Positions 8,208 to 46,767 of a stretch of 46,767 nt of DNA are shown in pieces. Under the pieces are notes generated by a model. That model had not been told where the DNA came from. It saw only the letters and a list, made by a program, of their open reading frames with translations, and ran no database searches. Made by a program: the position numbers and the translations under genes. The DNA is from a virus. Within the stretch, counting starts at the first letter, position 1, and every line of letters starts with the position of its first letter. The DNA lies in the IMG/VR virus record IMGVR_UViG_3300045141_000250, positions 1-46,767 of that record, one strand, 5' to 3'.

Positions 8208-8531
8208 TTAGGAGGTTAGGTTTGGATTGTTGGGGGCAATGAATGAGGCTCGAGCAGGAGTGCAGTTAGTTCGGACCATCGAGGTTCGGTACTGATCGAG
8301 GAGGGATTGTTGGGAGAGCTGCGGGACTTGGTGACGAGAAAGCGTGGCGCGTTCGGCTCTTAGCTGCTCATTCTCTGCCCATAGGGCATGCCATGAGGTG
8401 CGCCAGTGGTTGAGGGCGAAGGTGGCGCGCTCGAGCTCGGCTTCGAGTTCAAGCTCGCGCTTGGTCTTCTGCGGGAGGATCGGCTTGATCGGGAACAGGA
8501 CTAGGCCCAGGAACAGGCTTGTCAGGCTCAT
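8208..8531 (-). CDS. hypothetical protein with N-terminal hydrophobic segment and coiled coil
   Basis: This 107-residue protein opens with a hydrophobic stretch (residues 2-20, SLFLGLVLFPIKPIL), followed by a charged coiled coil (KRELELEAELERATFALN and WAENEQLRAERATL) and a polar tail. The layout of a short anchor plus a coiled coil resembles an inner-membrane spanin, but spanins have longer external parts and sit beside lysis genes, which are at 41-43 kb here. It overlaps the upstream gene by 83 nt in another frame. Confidence 0.5.
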   Translation of the reverse strand: MSLTSLFLGLVLFPIKPILPQKTKRELELEAELERATFALNHWRTSWHALWAENEQLRAERATLSRHQVPQLSQQSLLDQYRTSMVRTNCTPARASFIAPNNPNLTS

Positions 8532-8748
8532 TGGAGGCTCGCTGAGGGAATTGGGATGAAGCGATGGTGGCGAGGGCGGCTGTGAGGGCGGAAGCCGCTA
8601 CGCGCCAGCGTTGGGCTTCTTCGGGCGGGATTCCGCTGTCAGCCTTGCGCTGGCATGTGCGCTGGAGGGACAAGAGCAGCGCTTCGGGCTCATTGAGCTC
8701 GATCAAAAGGCGCGTCGACTCGGCCAGCTCTTGCTCTTCAAATGTCAT
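8449..8748 (-). CDS. hypothetical small acidic protein
   Basis: A 99-residue protein with a helical N-terminal ~65 residues (EEQELAESTRLLIELNEPEALLLSLQ and EAQRWRVAASALTAALATI) and a Pro-rich tail. It is first in a two-gene minus operon whose promoter should lie in 8749-8815, divergent from the plus-strand small-gene array. The Pro-rich tail is encoded where it overlaps the next gene, so the overlap may constrain it. The function is not recognised. Confidence 0.55.
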   Translation of the reverse strand: MTFEEQELAESTRLLIELNEPEALLLSLQRTCQRKADSGIPPEEAQRWRVAASALTAALATIASSQFPQRASNEPDKPVPGPSPVPDQADPPAEDQARA

Positions 8749-8852: not shown

Positions 8853-8869
8853 GGTGGCGATAGGCCACC
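8853..8869 (+). promoter_or_regulatory. leader hairpin 1 of the small-gene array
   Basis: GGTGGC-GATAG-GCCACC is a perfect 6-bp stem with a GATAG loop, 13 nt before the ATG at 8883. A GAGGAGAAAT ribosome binding site lies between stem and start. The same stem core and loop recur at 9100-9114. Confidence 0.55.
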
Positions 8870-9099: not shown

Positions 9100-9136
9100 G
9101 TGGCGATAGGCCACATAACAAAGGAAACCGACGATA
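9100..9136 (+). promoter_or_regulatory. leader hairpin 2 with AAGGAAACCGACGAT ribosome-binding leader
   Basis: GTGGC-GATAG-GCCAC (9100-9114), identical in stem core and loop to leader 1, is followed by AAGGAAACCGACGAT and then the ATG at 9136. The post-hairpin leader is repeated almost exactly before 9422. Confidence 0.55.
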
Positions 9137-9384: not shown

Positions 9385-9422
9385 CGGGCGATCTTGCCCG
9401 GTAATGAAGGAAACCGACGATA
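9385..9422 (+). promoter_or_regulatory. leader hairpin 3 with AAGGAAACCGACGAT leader
   Basis: CGGGC-GATCTT-GCCCG (9385-9400) followed by AAGGAAACCGACGAT and the ATG at 9422. The stem differs from leaders 1 and 2 but both arms change together, so pairing is kept, which suggests RNA structure is selected. Confidence 0.55.
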
Positions 9423-9547
9423 TGAAAACCCTGTTTGTCACAATTGTCCTGGCCATTGCCGCCGTGTCGTTCTCGCAGGAGGCGTTCGCCTACAATCAGT
9501 GCACCACCAGCTGCTACGGCAATCAGTGCACCACTCAGTGCTTCTGA
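9422..9547 (+). CDS. secreted cysteine-rich micropeptide
   Basis: This 41-residue protein has a clear Sec signal peptide: MK, a hydrophobic core LFVTIVLAIAAVSF, and an AFA cleavage site at ~23. The predicted mature peptide is only 18 residues, YNQCTTSCYGNQCTTQCF, with four cysteines in two near-identical halves (NQCTTSC and NQCTTQC). Two disulfides are likely after export. I do not recognise a family; a periplasmic or extracellular host-directed peptide is inference. Its stop overlaps the next ATG (TGATG). Confidence 0.75.
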   Translation: MKTLFVTIVLAIAAVSFSQEAFAYNQCTTSCYGNQCTTQCF

Positions 9548-9615
9548 TGGCGCGAACCATCTTCGGCCTCATGGCCATAGGCGCGCTGCTTTATGCGTGT
9601 CGCCACTTCACCTGA
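9547..9615 (+). CDS. 22-residue membrane micropeptide
   Basis: MARTIFGLMAIGALLYACRHFT: one short hydrophobic segment with a basic C-terminus. It starts within the stop of the secreted micropeptide (TGATG) and ends just before the terminator at 9623, so it is the last gene of this transcript. Coupled translation supports a real gene, but size alone makes it uncertain. Confidence 0.45.
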   Translation: MARTIFGLMAIGALLYACRHFT

Positions 9616-9622
9616 TAACCAG

Positions 9623-9648
9623 CCCCCGGCCTCAAAACCGGGGGTTTT
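9623..9648 (+). terminator. intrinsic terminator after the small-gene array
   Basis: CCCCCGG-cctcaaaa-CCGGGGG is a perfect 7-bp GC stem followed immediately by TTTT: a classic Rho-independent terminator. A TTGACA hexamer follows three bases later (9651-9656), so transcription of the next gene may restart there. Confidence 0.85.
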
Positions 9649-9650
9649 CC

Positions 9651-9700
9651 TTGACAAGCCTATGGCTAAAGGCCAGCTTAGGCGAGACGAAGGAACCCGA
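9651..9700 (+). promoter_or_regulatory. leader 4: TTGACA, small hairpin and GAAGGAACCCGACA leader
   Basis: TTGACA at 9651-9656 could be a -35 element, though the matching -10 is poor. TGGC-TAAAG-GCCA (9663-9675) is a short stem-loop. GAAGGAACCCGACA before the ATG at 9703 is a variant of the leaders at 9121 and 9408. Confidence 0.4.
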
Positions 9701-10013: not shown

Positions 10014-10253
10014 ATGACCTTCACCGCTTGCAAATCGCGCTCGACTGCCCGACGCCGCTATCCGGGCGCCGCCCATATCGTTAAGGTGGACGGCGGCTAT
10101 ATGTGCTTCACTTCGACGACGGCGTATTTGTCGGCGTGCGCCAACGACGTGCGCCTTTTTGATTCGCCCGCTGCCTCAGCGTTGCGCCGCCGCAACGTAA
10201 AAAGCCGCCTCTTTGACTGGCGGACCGAGTTCCCGCAGAAGCGCGAGCCATGA
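10014..10253 (+). CDS. small protein carrying a copy of the capsid N-terminal segment
   Basis: This 79-residue protein has two parts. Residues ~20-46 (VKVDGGYMCFTSTTAYLSA) resemble short phage hypothetical proteins. Residues 49-72 match residues 30-53 of this phage's major capsid protein (43085-44095) without gaps, 17 of 24 identical: SALRRRNVKSRLFDW here, SAIRRRNVKNRIFDW in the capsid. The similarity is visible in the DNA too. No further capsid sequence follows, so this is a peptide-sized copy and not a degraded full gene. It ends in an ATGA overlap with the HTH gene. Function is unknown; a decoy, an assembly inhibitor acting on competing phages, or a fragment left by recombination are the options. 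Confidence 0.75.
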   Translation: MTFTACKSRSTARRRYPGAAHIVKVDGGYMCFTSTTAYLSACANDVRLFDSPAASALRRRNVKSRLFDWRTEFPQKREP

Positions 10254-10504
10254 CCGCCGATGAACTGCGACAGGCCCGCAGCCAACTCGGCGTCTCAGGC
10301 GCAGAGTTCGCCCGCGCCTTCGATGTCTCAGAACGCACCTTGCGCTCATGGGAGGGCGCAATCCATAACAAACGCCTGATCCCCGTCCCACGCACAGTCG
10401 CAATCCTGACCAAGCTCGCGCTTAAAAATCCCTCAATCCGTCGCGAACTCGGGCTTACGAAAGCCAAAAGTGCCACGCCCCAGGAACCAAACGCCCAAGC
10501 CTAG
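10250..10504 (+). CDS. HTH transcriptional regulator
   Basis: This 84-residue protein has an N-terminal XRE/MqsA-like helix-turn-helix at residues ~4-55 (LRQARSQLGVSGAEFARAFD then SERTLRSWEG), with a helical C-terminal region. It is coupled to the capsid-mimic gene by ATGA and overlaps the zinc-ribbon gene by 35 nt. It probably regulates this cassette or a host/phage promoter; the target is not evident. Confidence 0.8.
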   Translation: MTADELRQARSQLGVSGAEFARAFDVSERTLRSWEGAIHNKRLIPVPRTVAILTKLALKNPSIRRELGLTKAKSATPQEPNAQA

Positions 10505-19334: not shown

Positions 19335-19382
19335 ACTGGAATGAGCGAGCCGACTCCATCGGCCAAACAAAGGTGGGACACA

Positions 19383-20093
19383 ATGAAAAAGCTTTTATTG
19401 ACGACGGCTTTGCTGGGGGCATTGGGGTTGAGCCCGGCGCTGGCCGCCGATACGGCGCTGACGCTATGGAACTCGGCTAACCCCGGCGGCGCGGTGACCG
19501 CAATCGGCACCACCACGGCGGTGCTCTCGGGGTCCAACCTTGGCGGCATCACCATCTCGACCAGCGGCGTGCTGCGGGAAACCGTGCCTAGCAACGGGAT
19601 GACGGAATCCAACCTGTTCATCACCAACACCACCGGGAGCGTGCAGACGCTGGACATCTTGGCTGGGACGAACAGTTTTCTTGGTCCCAACAATGCGTTC
19701 AATGCGTCGGCCACTATCCTCATCGGAACCGGTTCTGCCGAACTCACCGGCGAGTTCTTCGTGGATCCGCTCAACACCCTGAACGGCGTGAACACAGGCC
19801 CGGTGGTCGGAACCCAGATCGGCGGCACTTTTGACAGCGGTTTGCTGACGGGGCCGTTCTCGTTCTCGTCCAATAGCCCAGACGTCCCGTTCTCGGTGAC
19901 CGGCCTCTACGGCATGGCCGAGGAACTGCAACTGACTTTGCAGCCGGGAGCGTTCATCGGGGTTCAAAGCATTTCGATGAACGCCACCAATGCGGTGCCC
20001 GAGCCGTCGACCTGGGCGATGATGCTTGGCGGCTTCGGCCTGATGGCTTTGTTGGGCCTGAAGCGTCGTAAGACCGCGCGCTTCGCGGTCTGA
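19383..20093 (+). CDS. secreted PEPxxWA-CTERM protein
   Basis: This 236-residue protein has a Sec signal peptide (MKKLLLTTALLGALGLSPALA) and a Ser/Thr/Gly-rich beta-type central domain. Its C-terminus is a complete PEP-CTERM tail: VPEPSTWAMMLGGFG, a hydrophobic helix, then LKRRKTARFAV. In alphaproteobacteria PEPxxWA tails are cut and handled by exosortases, typically delivering proteins to the cell surface or polymer matrix. Strong ribosome binding sequence AAGGTGGG precedes the ATG at 19383. It lies inside the recombination operon between the YqaJ nuclease and NinB, and its codon use looks like its neighbours. The start could be read from 19341, but that would bury the signal peptide. This class is not expected in a phage, so it may be a cell-envelope modifying cargo gene. 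Confidence 0.85.
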   Translation: MKKLLLTTALLGALGLSPALAADTALTLWNSANPGGAVTAIGTTTAVLSGSNLGGITISTSGVLRETVPSNGMTESNLFITNTTGSVQTLDILAGTNSFLGPNNAFNASATILIGTGSAELTGEFFVDPLNTLNGVNTGPVVGTQIGGTFDSGLLTGPFSFSSNSPDVPFSVTGLYGMAEELQLTLQPGAFIGVQSISMNATNAVPEPSTWAMMLGGFGLMALLGLKRRKTARFAV

Positions 20094-44110: not shown

Positions 44111-45292
44111 TCATTTGAGAAGTCTCTCGAAGACGGCGGCGGTGGCGTCGATTGAGCCTCCGGTGCGCGCCTGGTTTTTGAGAGCGTCATCAATGCTTCT
44201 GCGGGCCGCTGAGCCGATTGGTCTTGCGCTTCCGGGAGCTAATGTGCGTCCTTTGTCATGCATGACTGGTCTGGGTTTGTTAGCCATCATGCGTCGGTAT
44301 TCGCTGGCGTCCCGGAGGACGTGCAGCATTCGGGGATCGAAGACGGTCCCGATTTCCTGTTCGTTGAAGCCGTAGACTTCCATGCCGATCTTGCGCATGG
44401 CTGAAAATTCGTTGTTCAGCGTCGCGGTGTCGGTGATTCCGGTTCTTCGCCTGAACTCCTGTTTCCCCCATTCGGCATAGGCCGCCTCCTGCTGGGCGGC
44501 GGCTTGCGCCTGGGCCGTGTACTGAGCCTGGGCCTCAGCCTGCTCGCGCTGCATTTCCTGGGCGATCGAGGTCATCCGGCCGCGGACGTGCTGGTAGACT
44601 TTCTCTTTGTCGTGGGCGGCCTTCGGATCGGTGGAGTATTCGGCCTCCCAGTTGAGCTCCTTGGGATAGAGGTCGGCCATGACCCGGCCGATATATTCGA
44701 GCCGCTGCTGGTAGGTCTGGCGGGCCTGGCCGATCTCCTGGGCGGCTACCGCGCTCTGCTGCTCGAAGGTCCTGGCGTATTCCTCGACCTGGCGGGCGCG
44801 TTGAGTGATGGCTTCCTGTTCGGCGTAGCCCTTGACCACTTCCTGGAGGGAGACCTGTTTGGTTTCGCCGCCGACGTCGATTTCGATTTTCTCGACTGGC
44901 TTGCCGTCGTGGGTCAGAGCCCAGCGCGCGGCATCCTCGTCAGGCTCCCCTTCGGCGTCATCCGTCTTGGGCTTGTCTTCGGGCTCTTTGGCCTCGCCAT
45001 CGGGCTTTTTCTCCTCGGCGGCGGCGTCGGCGCTGCGGGTGAGTTCTTCAGCGTCCCCTTCCTCGCCCCTGCCGTCGGCGACTCTTCGCTCGATGGCCTT
45101 GAGACGCTCGTCATCCCCGGCGTCGCGGGTATCTCCTGTCTTCTCATCGCCTTCGAGGGGGCGCGGCTCGAACAGCGGCTCGGGGCGCGAGGACGTACCG
45201 CTGAAGCGACCGCTCTCGTCCCTGGGGCGCTCGGAGCCCGGGGCGATCTCGTTGCGGAAGGCGTCCGCCGCTGTATCGAGTCCTTCGGCCAT
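44111..45292 (-). CDS. scaffolding protein, copy B (complete)
   Basis: This 393-residue protein is the complete counterpart of copy A at 1-1005. The N-terminal ~130 residues are acidic and disordered; residues ~150-300 are coiled coil (YAEQEAITQRARQVEEYARTFEQQS, and Gln/Ala-rich stretches); the C-terminal ~60 residues are basic with helical ends (ARRSIDDALKNQARTGG, FERLLK), a usual capsid-binding feature. It lies between the connector gene and the capsid gene. TGATG overlap sets the start. Confidence 0.85.
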   Translation of the reverse strand: MAEGLDTAADAFRNEIAPGSERPRDESGRFSGTSSRPEPLFEPRPLEGDEKTGDTRDAGDDERLKAIERRVADGRGEEGDAEELTRSADAAAEEKKPDGEAKEPEDKPKTDDAEGEPDEDAARWALTHDGKPVEKIEIDVGGETKQVSLQEVVKGYAEQEAITQRARQVEEYARTFEQQSAVAAQEIGQARQTYQQRLEYIGRVMADLYPKELNWEAEYSTDPKAAHDKEKVYQHVRGRMTSIAQEMQREQAEAQAQYTAQAQAAAQQEAAYAEWGKQEFRRRTGITDTATLNNEFSAMRKIGMEVYGFNEQEIGTVFDPRMLHVLRDASEYRRMMANKPRPVMHDKGRTLAPGSARPIGSAARRSIDDALKNQARTGGSIDATAAVFERLLK

Positions 45293-45546
45293 CAGACGCC
45301 GCCCCGGTTCTGGGCGCGCACGCCTGCGTTGTACTCATTGATCAGGGCTCTGAGCTGGCCGGCGATCTCGTCAATCACCTTGATCTGGGCGACCAGTTCG
45401 AGCTTCTTTTCGGTGGTGGCGGCGGTGGTGATAAGCGTGTTGACCAGGCGATCGCGCAGGCCCGTCCTGGCCGCCTCGAACGCCTTGCTTTCGAGGATGT
45501 CCTTCGCCTCGGTGGCGAGTTCCCGTTTGGCGGACAGGTCATTCAT
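45292..45546 (-). CDS. small conserved head-module protein, copy B
   Basis: This 84-residue protein is the counterpart of 1005-1256, keeping MNDLSAKREL and INEYNAGVRAQ but with a different middle (TGLRDRLVNTLITTAATTEKKLELVAQIK). It is directly coupled to portal copy B (ATGA), because the helix-hairpin-helix gene of the left copy is missing here. Confidence 0.7.
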   Translation of the reverse strand: MNDLSAKRELATEAKDILESKAFEAARTGLRDRLVNTLITTAATTEKKLELVAQIKVIDEIAGQLRALINEYNAGVRAQNRGGV

Positions 45547-46767
45547 TGACCGTCACCGCTATTATTGTTCTGTTGCGCCGCCTGGGCGGTCTGCGCCTGC
45601 AGGTTGGCCGCTTCCCGCTGCTGGGCGATCTTGGCCTGGTCGGTGGCGAATTTCATCTGCATCTCGCGGTGCTGCATTTCCGCATCGAGATGGGCGGTGT
45701 GGACATCGACGCCGATCTTGGCGGCCTCGATTGGATCGACGGCGGTTGGGCCTGCCGGGCTCGCGCCGACGAACACCTTGGCCCGTTCGATTTCGAGCTT
45801 CTGCTGGTCGTAGGCGGTTTTCTGCCTGAGCTGCTCGTGGCGGAAGGCGTCGTCGGCCTGCTGCTTCTGTTTTCGGATCTCCTGGTCGCCCATCGCCTGG
45901 GCGGTTTCCGACTTGACCTTCTCGTATTGGGCTTTTGCCGCGACCGTCATGGCGTCCGGCTCTTTCGGCGCGGCGGCGATCTGTTGCAGCACCTGCGGGT
46001 TGGGGGTCATGAAGTAGCGGCCGACGTTCTTGATGTTGGCGAGCGCGAGAATGTCGGAGAGGGTGTTTTGATATTGCGGAATGCCGACCACCGGATTGCC
46101 GGGACCGAACTGCTGCATGATCGTTTCCTGGGTCTGCTTGATCATCATGAGGCTCTGGAAGCGGACGGTGTCGGAGCCTTTGCCCAGGGTTGAATTGACT
46201 TCGACTCCCATCGAGGCGTCGAAGGTCGAGGTGTCGATCGGGGTCCACTTGCCGTTGATGCGCAAGGTGCGGCGCTGGTTGGGGGACTCGGCGATTTCGT
46301 TGTAGAGGCCTTCGAAAAGGTCTTTGAACCCCGTTTCGGCGAGCACTCTGGCGATGAGTTCGGTGCGTTCCTGCTGGCCGTTGATGATGGCTTCGACGCC
46401 GACCTGGGTCGAGCTCTGCAGTTGTTTGGGGTCCAATCCTTTGGCGGCGTCGGACATGCCGGTGCGGCGCTGCAGGACGTCGTTCATGAGTTCGATGACG
46501 GGGAGCGCCTGCTGGCCGGCGAATGGGGTGGTGACGTAGGAGATGGCGTCGCCGGGGTTGCCGCGGACCCGGATGATGCCGCCGACATCGTCGTTCTGGG
46601 CGTCGTCCATATCGACGACCAGCTCGTTGATGGCGCTCTTCGGGTTGATGGATTCAGCGAGGGAGTCGAGCACCCCCCGCATCATGTTGGTCTTGAACTT
46701 CTGGACGTCCTGGACGTAGTCGGCCAGCGAGTCCCCGACGATGGTGTGGGAGATCGGATCGCAGCCG
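45543..46767 (-). CDS. portal protein, copy B, N-terminus beyond window
   Basis: The C-terminal ~408 codons of a portal like the one at 1441-3762; the frame is open to the window edge. Most differences are scattered substitutions; the last residues differ (AQQNNNSGDGQ here, AQQAPDNGDGS on the left). An internal ATG at 46685 is not the real start. It begins the right-hand repeat of the head module. Confidence 0.85.
   Translation of the reverse strand, partial: GCDPISHTIVGDSLADYVQDVQKFKTNMMRGVLDSLAESINPKSAINELVVDMDDAQNDDVGGIIRVRGNPGDAISYVTTPFAGQQALPVIELMNDVLQRRTGMSDAAKGLDPKQLQSSTQVGVEAIINGQQERTELIARVLAETGFKDLFEGLYNEIAESPNQRRTLRINGKWTPIDTSTFDASMGVEVNSTLGKGSDTVRFQSLMMIKQTQETIMQQFGPGNPVVGIPQYQNTLSDILALANIKNVGRYFMTPNPQVLQQIAAAPKEPDAMTVAAKAQYEKVKSETAQAMGDQEIRKQKQQADDAFRHEQLRQKTAYDQQKLEIERAKVFVGASPAGPTAVDPIEAAKIGVDVHTAHLDAEMQHREMQMKFATDQAKIAQQREAANLQAQTAQAAQQNNNSGDGQ

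Follow-up and report, generated by a model that had tools for sequence, protein, structure and literature searches.

A phage micropeptide gene representing the smallest version of a family of exported viral peptides with predicted disulfide hairpins

T4 Spackle is a phage envelope protein that excludes superinfection. Among animal peptides, a hairpin geometry is known from the tachyplesins and polyphemusins, to which gomesin is similar. Tachyplesins and polyphemusins are 17 or 18 residues long and contain two disulfides with the spacing C-x3-C-x4-C-x3-C (PMC6315362), and they carry net charges of +6 and +7 (PMC6315362; PMC13001179). The arbitrium peptide AimP is treated in a review of phage small proteins, in the text of which the words "periplasm" and "disulfide" are absent (PMC11323111). 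The micropeptide described here shares predicted export, small size and location in a phage accessory gene with Spackle-type exclusion proteins, and it resembles AimP (PMC11323111) in being tiny, phage-encoded and exported in a temperate phage. With tachyplesins and polyphemusins it has in common the length, the cysteine spacing and a Tyr after the second cysteine, the viral disulfides being predicted. In contrast to these strongly cationic animal peptides, it is viral and neutral, with many Thr, Asn and Gln residues; the two groups showed no homology in sequence, and the viral relatives reach three strands and 8 cysteines.

The window, i.e. the whole stretch of DNA analyzed (46,767 bases), is an IMG/VR virus record of a tailed phage, in which genes for the portal, terminase, major head protein, integrase, Erf, exonuclease, DNA methyltransferase and endolysin were recognized. 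The phage is temperate, since an integrase and regulators are present. The nearest named relative of its terminase belongs to Ochrobactrum phage vB_OspP_OH (53% identity), and further relatives include Rhodoferax, Methylophilales and Pelagibacter phages. Positions 1-2674 and 44288-46767 repeat each other with 83 to 90% identity; the repeat covers part of the portal gene together with a scaffold-like gene, and resembles the closure of a circular genome across strain variants. An exported protein encoded at 19341-20093 has a sorting signal of the PEPxxWA-CTERM type, scoring higher than the curated cut-off and suggesting that the host possesses an exosortase.

The micropeptide gene occupies positions 9422-9547 of the plus strand (41 codons plus stop), and re-reading of the sequence returned exactly the frame and coordinates of the initial annotation. 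Its product consists of a predicted signal peptide, MKTLFVTIVLAIAAVSFSQEAFA (9422-9490), and a mature part of 18 residues, YNQCTTSCYGNQCTTQCF (9491-9544). The export proposed earlier is supported by a typical signal-peptide-like start with an n-region Lys, a hydrophobic core and an EAFA cleavage motif, recognized by reading and by a crude signal-peptide rule, and modeled by AlphaFold as a helix at residues 3-15. Directly upstream, the Shine-Dalgarno-like leader AAGGAAACCGACGAT (9407-9421, plus strand) includes AAGGAAA just 5' of the frame, and a portion of it, GGAAACCGACGAT, is common to the peptide gene and the gene at 9136.

The DNA pattern of CTTxCYGxxCTTxC recovered at least 120 stretches in the viral contig collection and 4 in a 257-Gb genome collection. 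By reading, the motif was in frame with a stop one residue past the last cysteine in all 120 viral matches listed, and 115 of these had a signal-peptide-like start by a rule devised for this analysis. Further patterns added variants of the family; a loosened pattern gave 92 matches, many of which were out of frame or lacked a signal peptide and were dropped, and an over-tight pattern demanding NQ repeats gave none. The window peptide combines a signal-peptide-like start, the module C-x3-C-Y-G-x2-C-x3-C, which in the family is followed by one to three residues and then the stop, and four cysteines in even, in-register pairs (position sums 67 and 67). Judged by sequence, its gene is a true member of this viral family of CTTxCYG exported peptides. 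Rather than a lone oddity, the peptide is the smallest version of a large family of viral peptides, and the conserved cysteine pattern among homologues, on which the first reading had been made to depend, is seen in both motif position and cysteine counts. In a tree built on few columns, with rough support, the window peptide falls in a short 4-Cys branch with L144, L207, L209, L210 and L271 (L numbers denote individual loci), joined more deeply by bacterial copies from SAR11 and from a planctomycete (L199).

Searches of existing resources agree with the initial remark that such peptides are rarely described. The 44 members scanned against Pfam, PHROGs and NCBIfam gave no credible family match, with no score passing a curated cut-off and no convincing E-value (best E-values 0.0016, 0.00048 and 0.004, respectively). 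One member matched Spackle weakly in PHROGs (E 0.0035) and in Pfam (E 0.13); these matches probably reflect the signal peptide, and there is otherwise no sequence relation. A profile search against PDB gave a single match (E 5.1), and the best E-value of a PDB fold search, 0.89, was uninformative. In tblastn searches of the named-phage and plasmid collections, the window peptide found signal-peptide-like matches or none. A 6-Cys relative used as query matched three records, two of them along 80% or more of its length, namely MW202462 and MW202544, both of 34,712 bases from Manatee Spring; at this place the annotation of MW202462 has no gene on the strand of the peptide and one on the other strand. 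Among the papers listed on phage-encoded, secreted or disulfide-rich small proteins, no title or abstract described such a family, which the catalogue of small phage genes by Fremin and colleagues may contain unnamed, and the listed matches to the motif letters look by title like primers or frog peptides. An environmental virus family of more than a hundred sequences is described by no library searched, despite the commonness and regular cysteine code of its members, whose length of under 60 residues is the probable reason.

This code was analyzed in 114 unique peptides with a signal peptide; 26 rows without a recognized one were left out, among them five clear members at contig ends or with no fitting start (L157, L159, L166, L167 and L188). 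The number of cysteines is even in every one of the 114 (4, 6, 8 or 12), and in an earlier count of 93 unique peptides the only odd number (5) belonged to the truncated L159. In the longer forms, numbered from the first cysteine as 0, the N-terminal C0 is linked with C17, the residue before the second cysteine of the C-terminal module: 101 peptides have both and 13 neither. A single exception among 115 unique peptides, L323, keeps C0 and has Arg at position 17; it came later, from a pattern selecting against cysteine at that position. The 8-Cys forms add an inner pair in register (20 of the 20 peptides with three N-terminal cysteines). The position sums coincide at 17 for C0+C17, C6+C11 and the turn N8-G9, and at 41 for C14+C27 and C18+C23 of the C-terminal module around the turn YG. 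One extra residue in the first turn shifts both pairs together, and most mid-points carry turn motifs such as NG, GG, QG or PDG. The tree requires no more than two or three changes of cysteine class, and the counts therefore do not amount to 114 independent events. Within it, the long 4-Cys forms L165, L180 and L183, which lack both partners, nest inside the 6-Cys group, and by their sequences this clade has probably lost both cysteines together. A 12-cysteine relative, L248, to which no pairs were assigned in the count, has a much longer cysteine-rich N-terminal arm.

AlphaFold models agree with this register, the models and the covariation resting on the same sequences and hence not being independent. 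For the window peptide (44 family sequences, mean pLDDT 65, a modest confidence) strands were assigned by DSSP at residues 27-32 and 35-40. For the 8-Cys L086 (50 sequences, mean pLDDT 79) they form a three-strand meander (18-27, 30-39 and 42-47), whose turns center on sums 57 and 81, the same as those of C20-C37 and C26-C31 and of C34-C47 and C38-C43. All putative disulfides of both peptides are in register with the strands. The two disulfides claimed for the mature peptide thus hold as a prediction, and its two near-identical halves are better read as two strands of a single hairpin. After Sec export and removal of the signal peptide, the 18-residue peptide would be oxidized in the periplasm to an antiparallel hairpin with bonds C27-C40 and C31-C36 around the turn YGNQ, Gly-Asn forming the turn itself; in relatives, a further strand would be joined by one or two additional disulfides in register. 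Export, processing and the oxidized hairpin are predictions with strong support, and we consider this structural part highly probable.

The peptide gene lies between a minus-strand gene (8449-8748) and a plus-strand gene for an HTH regulator (10250-10504). In L002, whose terminase is 94% identical to that of the window, the flanks, the leader and start context, and the terminator are all conserved, the regulator being 92% identical; the slot after the homologue of the 8449 gene holds a different, 71-residue exported protein without evident similarity to the window peptide. Such an exchange of exported peptides fits the expectation for an accessory cargo slot. The alternative protein (13367-13582 of L002) is Gln-rich with the C-terminal end RCAARNYQNCY. 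In L209, a homologue of the window peptide (58.5% identity) adjoins a homologue of the 8449 gene. In L012 and L073, which have these flanking genes too, no exported peptide was recognized between them by a crude scan, nor did crude filters find such peptides in 76 terminase-relative loci, many of which end short of the slot.

The coupling to a 22-residue membrane peptide proposed in the initial annotation did not hold up as well. The frame (9547-9615, plus strand), encoding MARTIFGLMAIGALLYACRHFT, does start in a TGATG overlap, but it is not conserved alongside the peptide, as a search of the loci compared, of low power at 22 residues, matched it nowhere beyond the window, and is possibly incidental. 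In L271, a 22-codon frame also follows the peptide directly in a TGATG overlap, downstream of 2298; it has a zinc-ribbon look and is unrelated to the membrane frame of the window. The strong terminator noted after the gene is borne out in part. A terminator-like hairpin with a short T run (9621-9650, plus strand; stem-loop at 9621-9646, then TTTT) folds at -17.7 kcal/mol (z -2.67) and, by eye, has an equivalent in the corresponding position of L002 with a paired stem change, but a strict terminator scan, the rule of which wants a longer T run, did not list it.

The genes around 123 loci (the listed matches of the first pattern and a few others) were crudely called and clustered. Ten representative neighbor proteins were scanned: four match replication or recombination functions (Erf, primosomal protein, SSB and exonuclease), one matches endolysin, three match best to families of unknown function and two had no match. 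The Erf-like cluster is near 45 of the 123 loci, the primosomal cluster near 27 (the next gene downstream in 20) and the SSB-like cluster near 24 (the next gene upstream in 18), pointing to early expression of the longer relatives, as far as gene order can tell. The peptide gene of the window has a different setting. The cluster with the endolysin representative is near 8 loci, for which a role at the time of lysis would also fit.

Several other explanations of the gene were weighed. The frame is very short, as would be expected of an incidental open frame without a product; this reading is nevertheless extremely improbable, because homologues carry the same module exactly at the C-terminus after signal peptides, and short-form members differ by synonymous codons (128 synonymous versus 68 non-synonymous differing codon pairs among seven of them, a ratio partly fixed by the search pattern). 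A released, bacteriocin-like antimicrobial that disturbs the membranes of competitors, as the horseshoe-crab hairpin peptides do, would be in line with the identical cysteine spacing, the Tyr after the second cysteine and the predicted hairpin. Against it, the strong positive charge of the tachyplesin and polyphemusin group is found neither in the window peptide (net charge 0) nor in the 114 family members (-2 to +1), there is no cationic or amphipathic pattern, and no immunity gene was recognized. The near-zero charge disfavors membrane lysis, so that of the antimicrobial role suggested at the outset the classical lytic form loses ground and another mechanism is possible; as a whole we find this explanation quite unlikely.

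A secreted, arbitrium-like signal that reports infection density and biases the choice of lysis or lysogeny is suggested by a tiny exported peptide in a temperate phage with regulators. Such a signal is still less probable, however, as it would need to cross the outer membrane, and the cysteine core hardly varies even between very different phages, in contrast to signals that determine specificity. The scanned neighbors include no receptor-like partner and no match to an AimR-like PHROG; in contrast to AimP, the window peptide thus comes without a receptor found and with a predicted disulfide-laddered core. Its many cysteines could also point to an envelope helper in redox chemistry, metal handling or lysis, such as a substrate or decoy for Dsb, a peptide that binds metal or a factor that assists lysis, and the endolysin-type cluster near 8 loci as well as weak matches to MerP (7 of 44 members, best E 0.057) and CopI (5 of 44, best E 0.0091) agree with this. 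The latter are probably signal-peptide matches, though; an even number of cysteines in register agrees with disulfides and not with metal sites, and the annotated neighbors are mostly replication genes, which leaves a helper of this kind unlikely.

We favor an exported hairpin peptide serving as an envelope accessory factor of a temperate phage, an explanation to which, taken whole, we give an even chance. Weighing against it are the exception L323, the few cysteine-pair changes in the tree, the modest confidence of the window model, the endolysin-type cluster, the SAR11 chromosomal copies described below and the outcome of the crude scan in L012 and L073. That the peptide is an accessory factor at the host envelope, acting outside the cytoplasm, is what we infer with somewhat more confidence. 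It would act on the envelope or at the cell surface, where the rigid Thr, Asn, Gln and aromatic faces of the hairpin would bind a partner. Superinfection exclusion, by which the infected or lysogenic cell would be protected from other phages, is the single most likely use, but as a specific assignment it is doubtful. Ice-binding and amyloid-like roles, an idea taken from the Thr- and Asn/Gln-rich faces, were set aside as there was no evidence for them.

The 4-Cys peptide also occurs at one chromosomal position in three Pelagibacteraceae (SAR11) genomes (L198, L200 and L201). In these copies a signal peptide precedes the same module, YSYCTTSCYGNSCTTYCY(D/E)Y; they differ from the window peptide in two extra C-terminal residues and in their conserved chromosomal position and gene order. 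By eye, a stem-loop lies directly 3' of the gene, and in two of the three loci the peptide is beside a lipoamide-dehydrogenase-like gene (named by eye). Among 147 Pelagibacteraceae genomes two matched, one being the known copy and the other dissimilar, and among 385 genomes of the class the known copy was the one match; with the search patterns used, bacterial copies are rare. The planctomycete copy is about 100 bases from the end of its locus in AT-rich DNA, and a chimera is suspected for this reason. As the SAR11 copies demonstrate, retention of the peptide is possible outside phages; these copies also tie this peptide class to very abundant marine bacteria.

More broadly, the family may represent a virus-borne class of exported effectors built on an expandable disulfide ladder, widespread, extracytoplasmic and convergent with the animal hairpin geometry, a generalization we offer tentatively. 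It is conceivable that this largely virus-borne and undescribed class extends from two strands with two bonds to three strands with four bonds, and its targets could perhaps be the host surface, rival phages or processes between cells. The regularity of the cysteines allows exact and cheap tests, and offers an entry point to what phages put beyond the host cytoplasm.

Palindromes of the form TGGC-N5-GCCA are found at 8855-8867, 9101-9113 and 9663-9675, within leader sequences of small genes that surround the peptide. The whole window contains five, and five or more occurred in only 1 of 100 shuffles; ahead of one gene, the stem is retained in L002 with a different loop.
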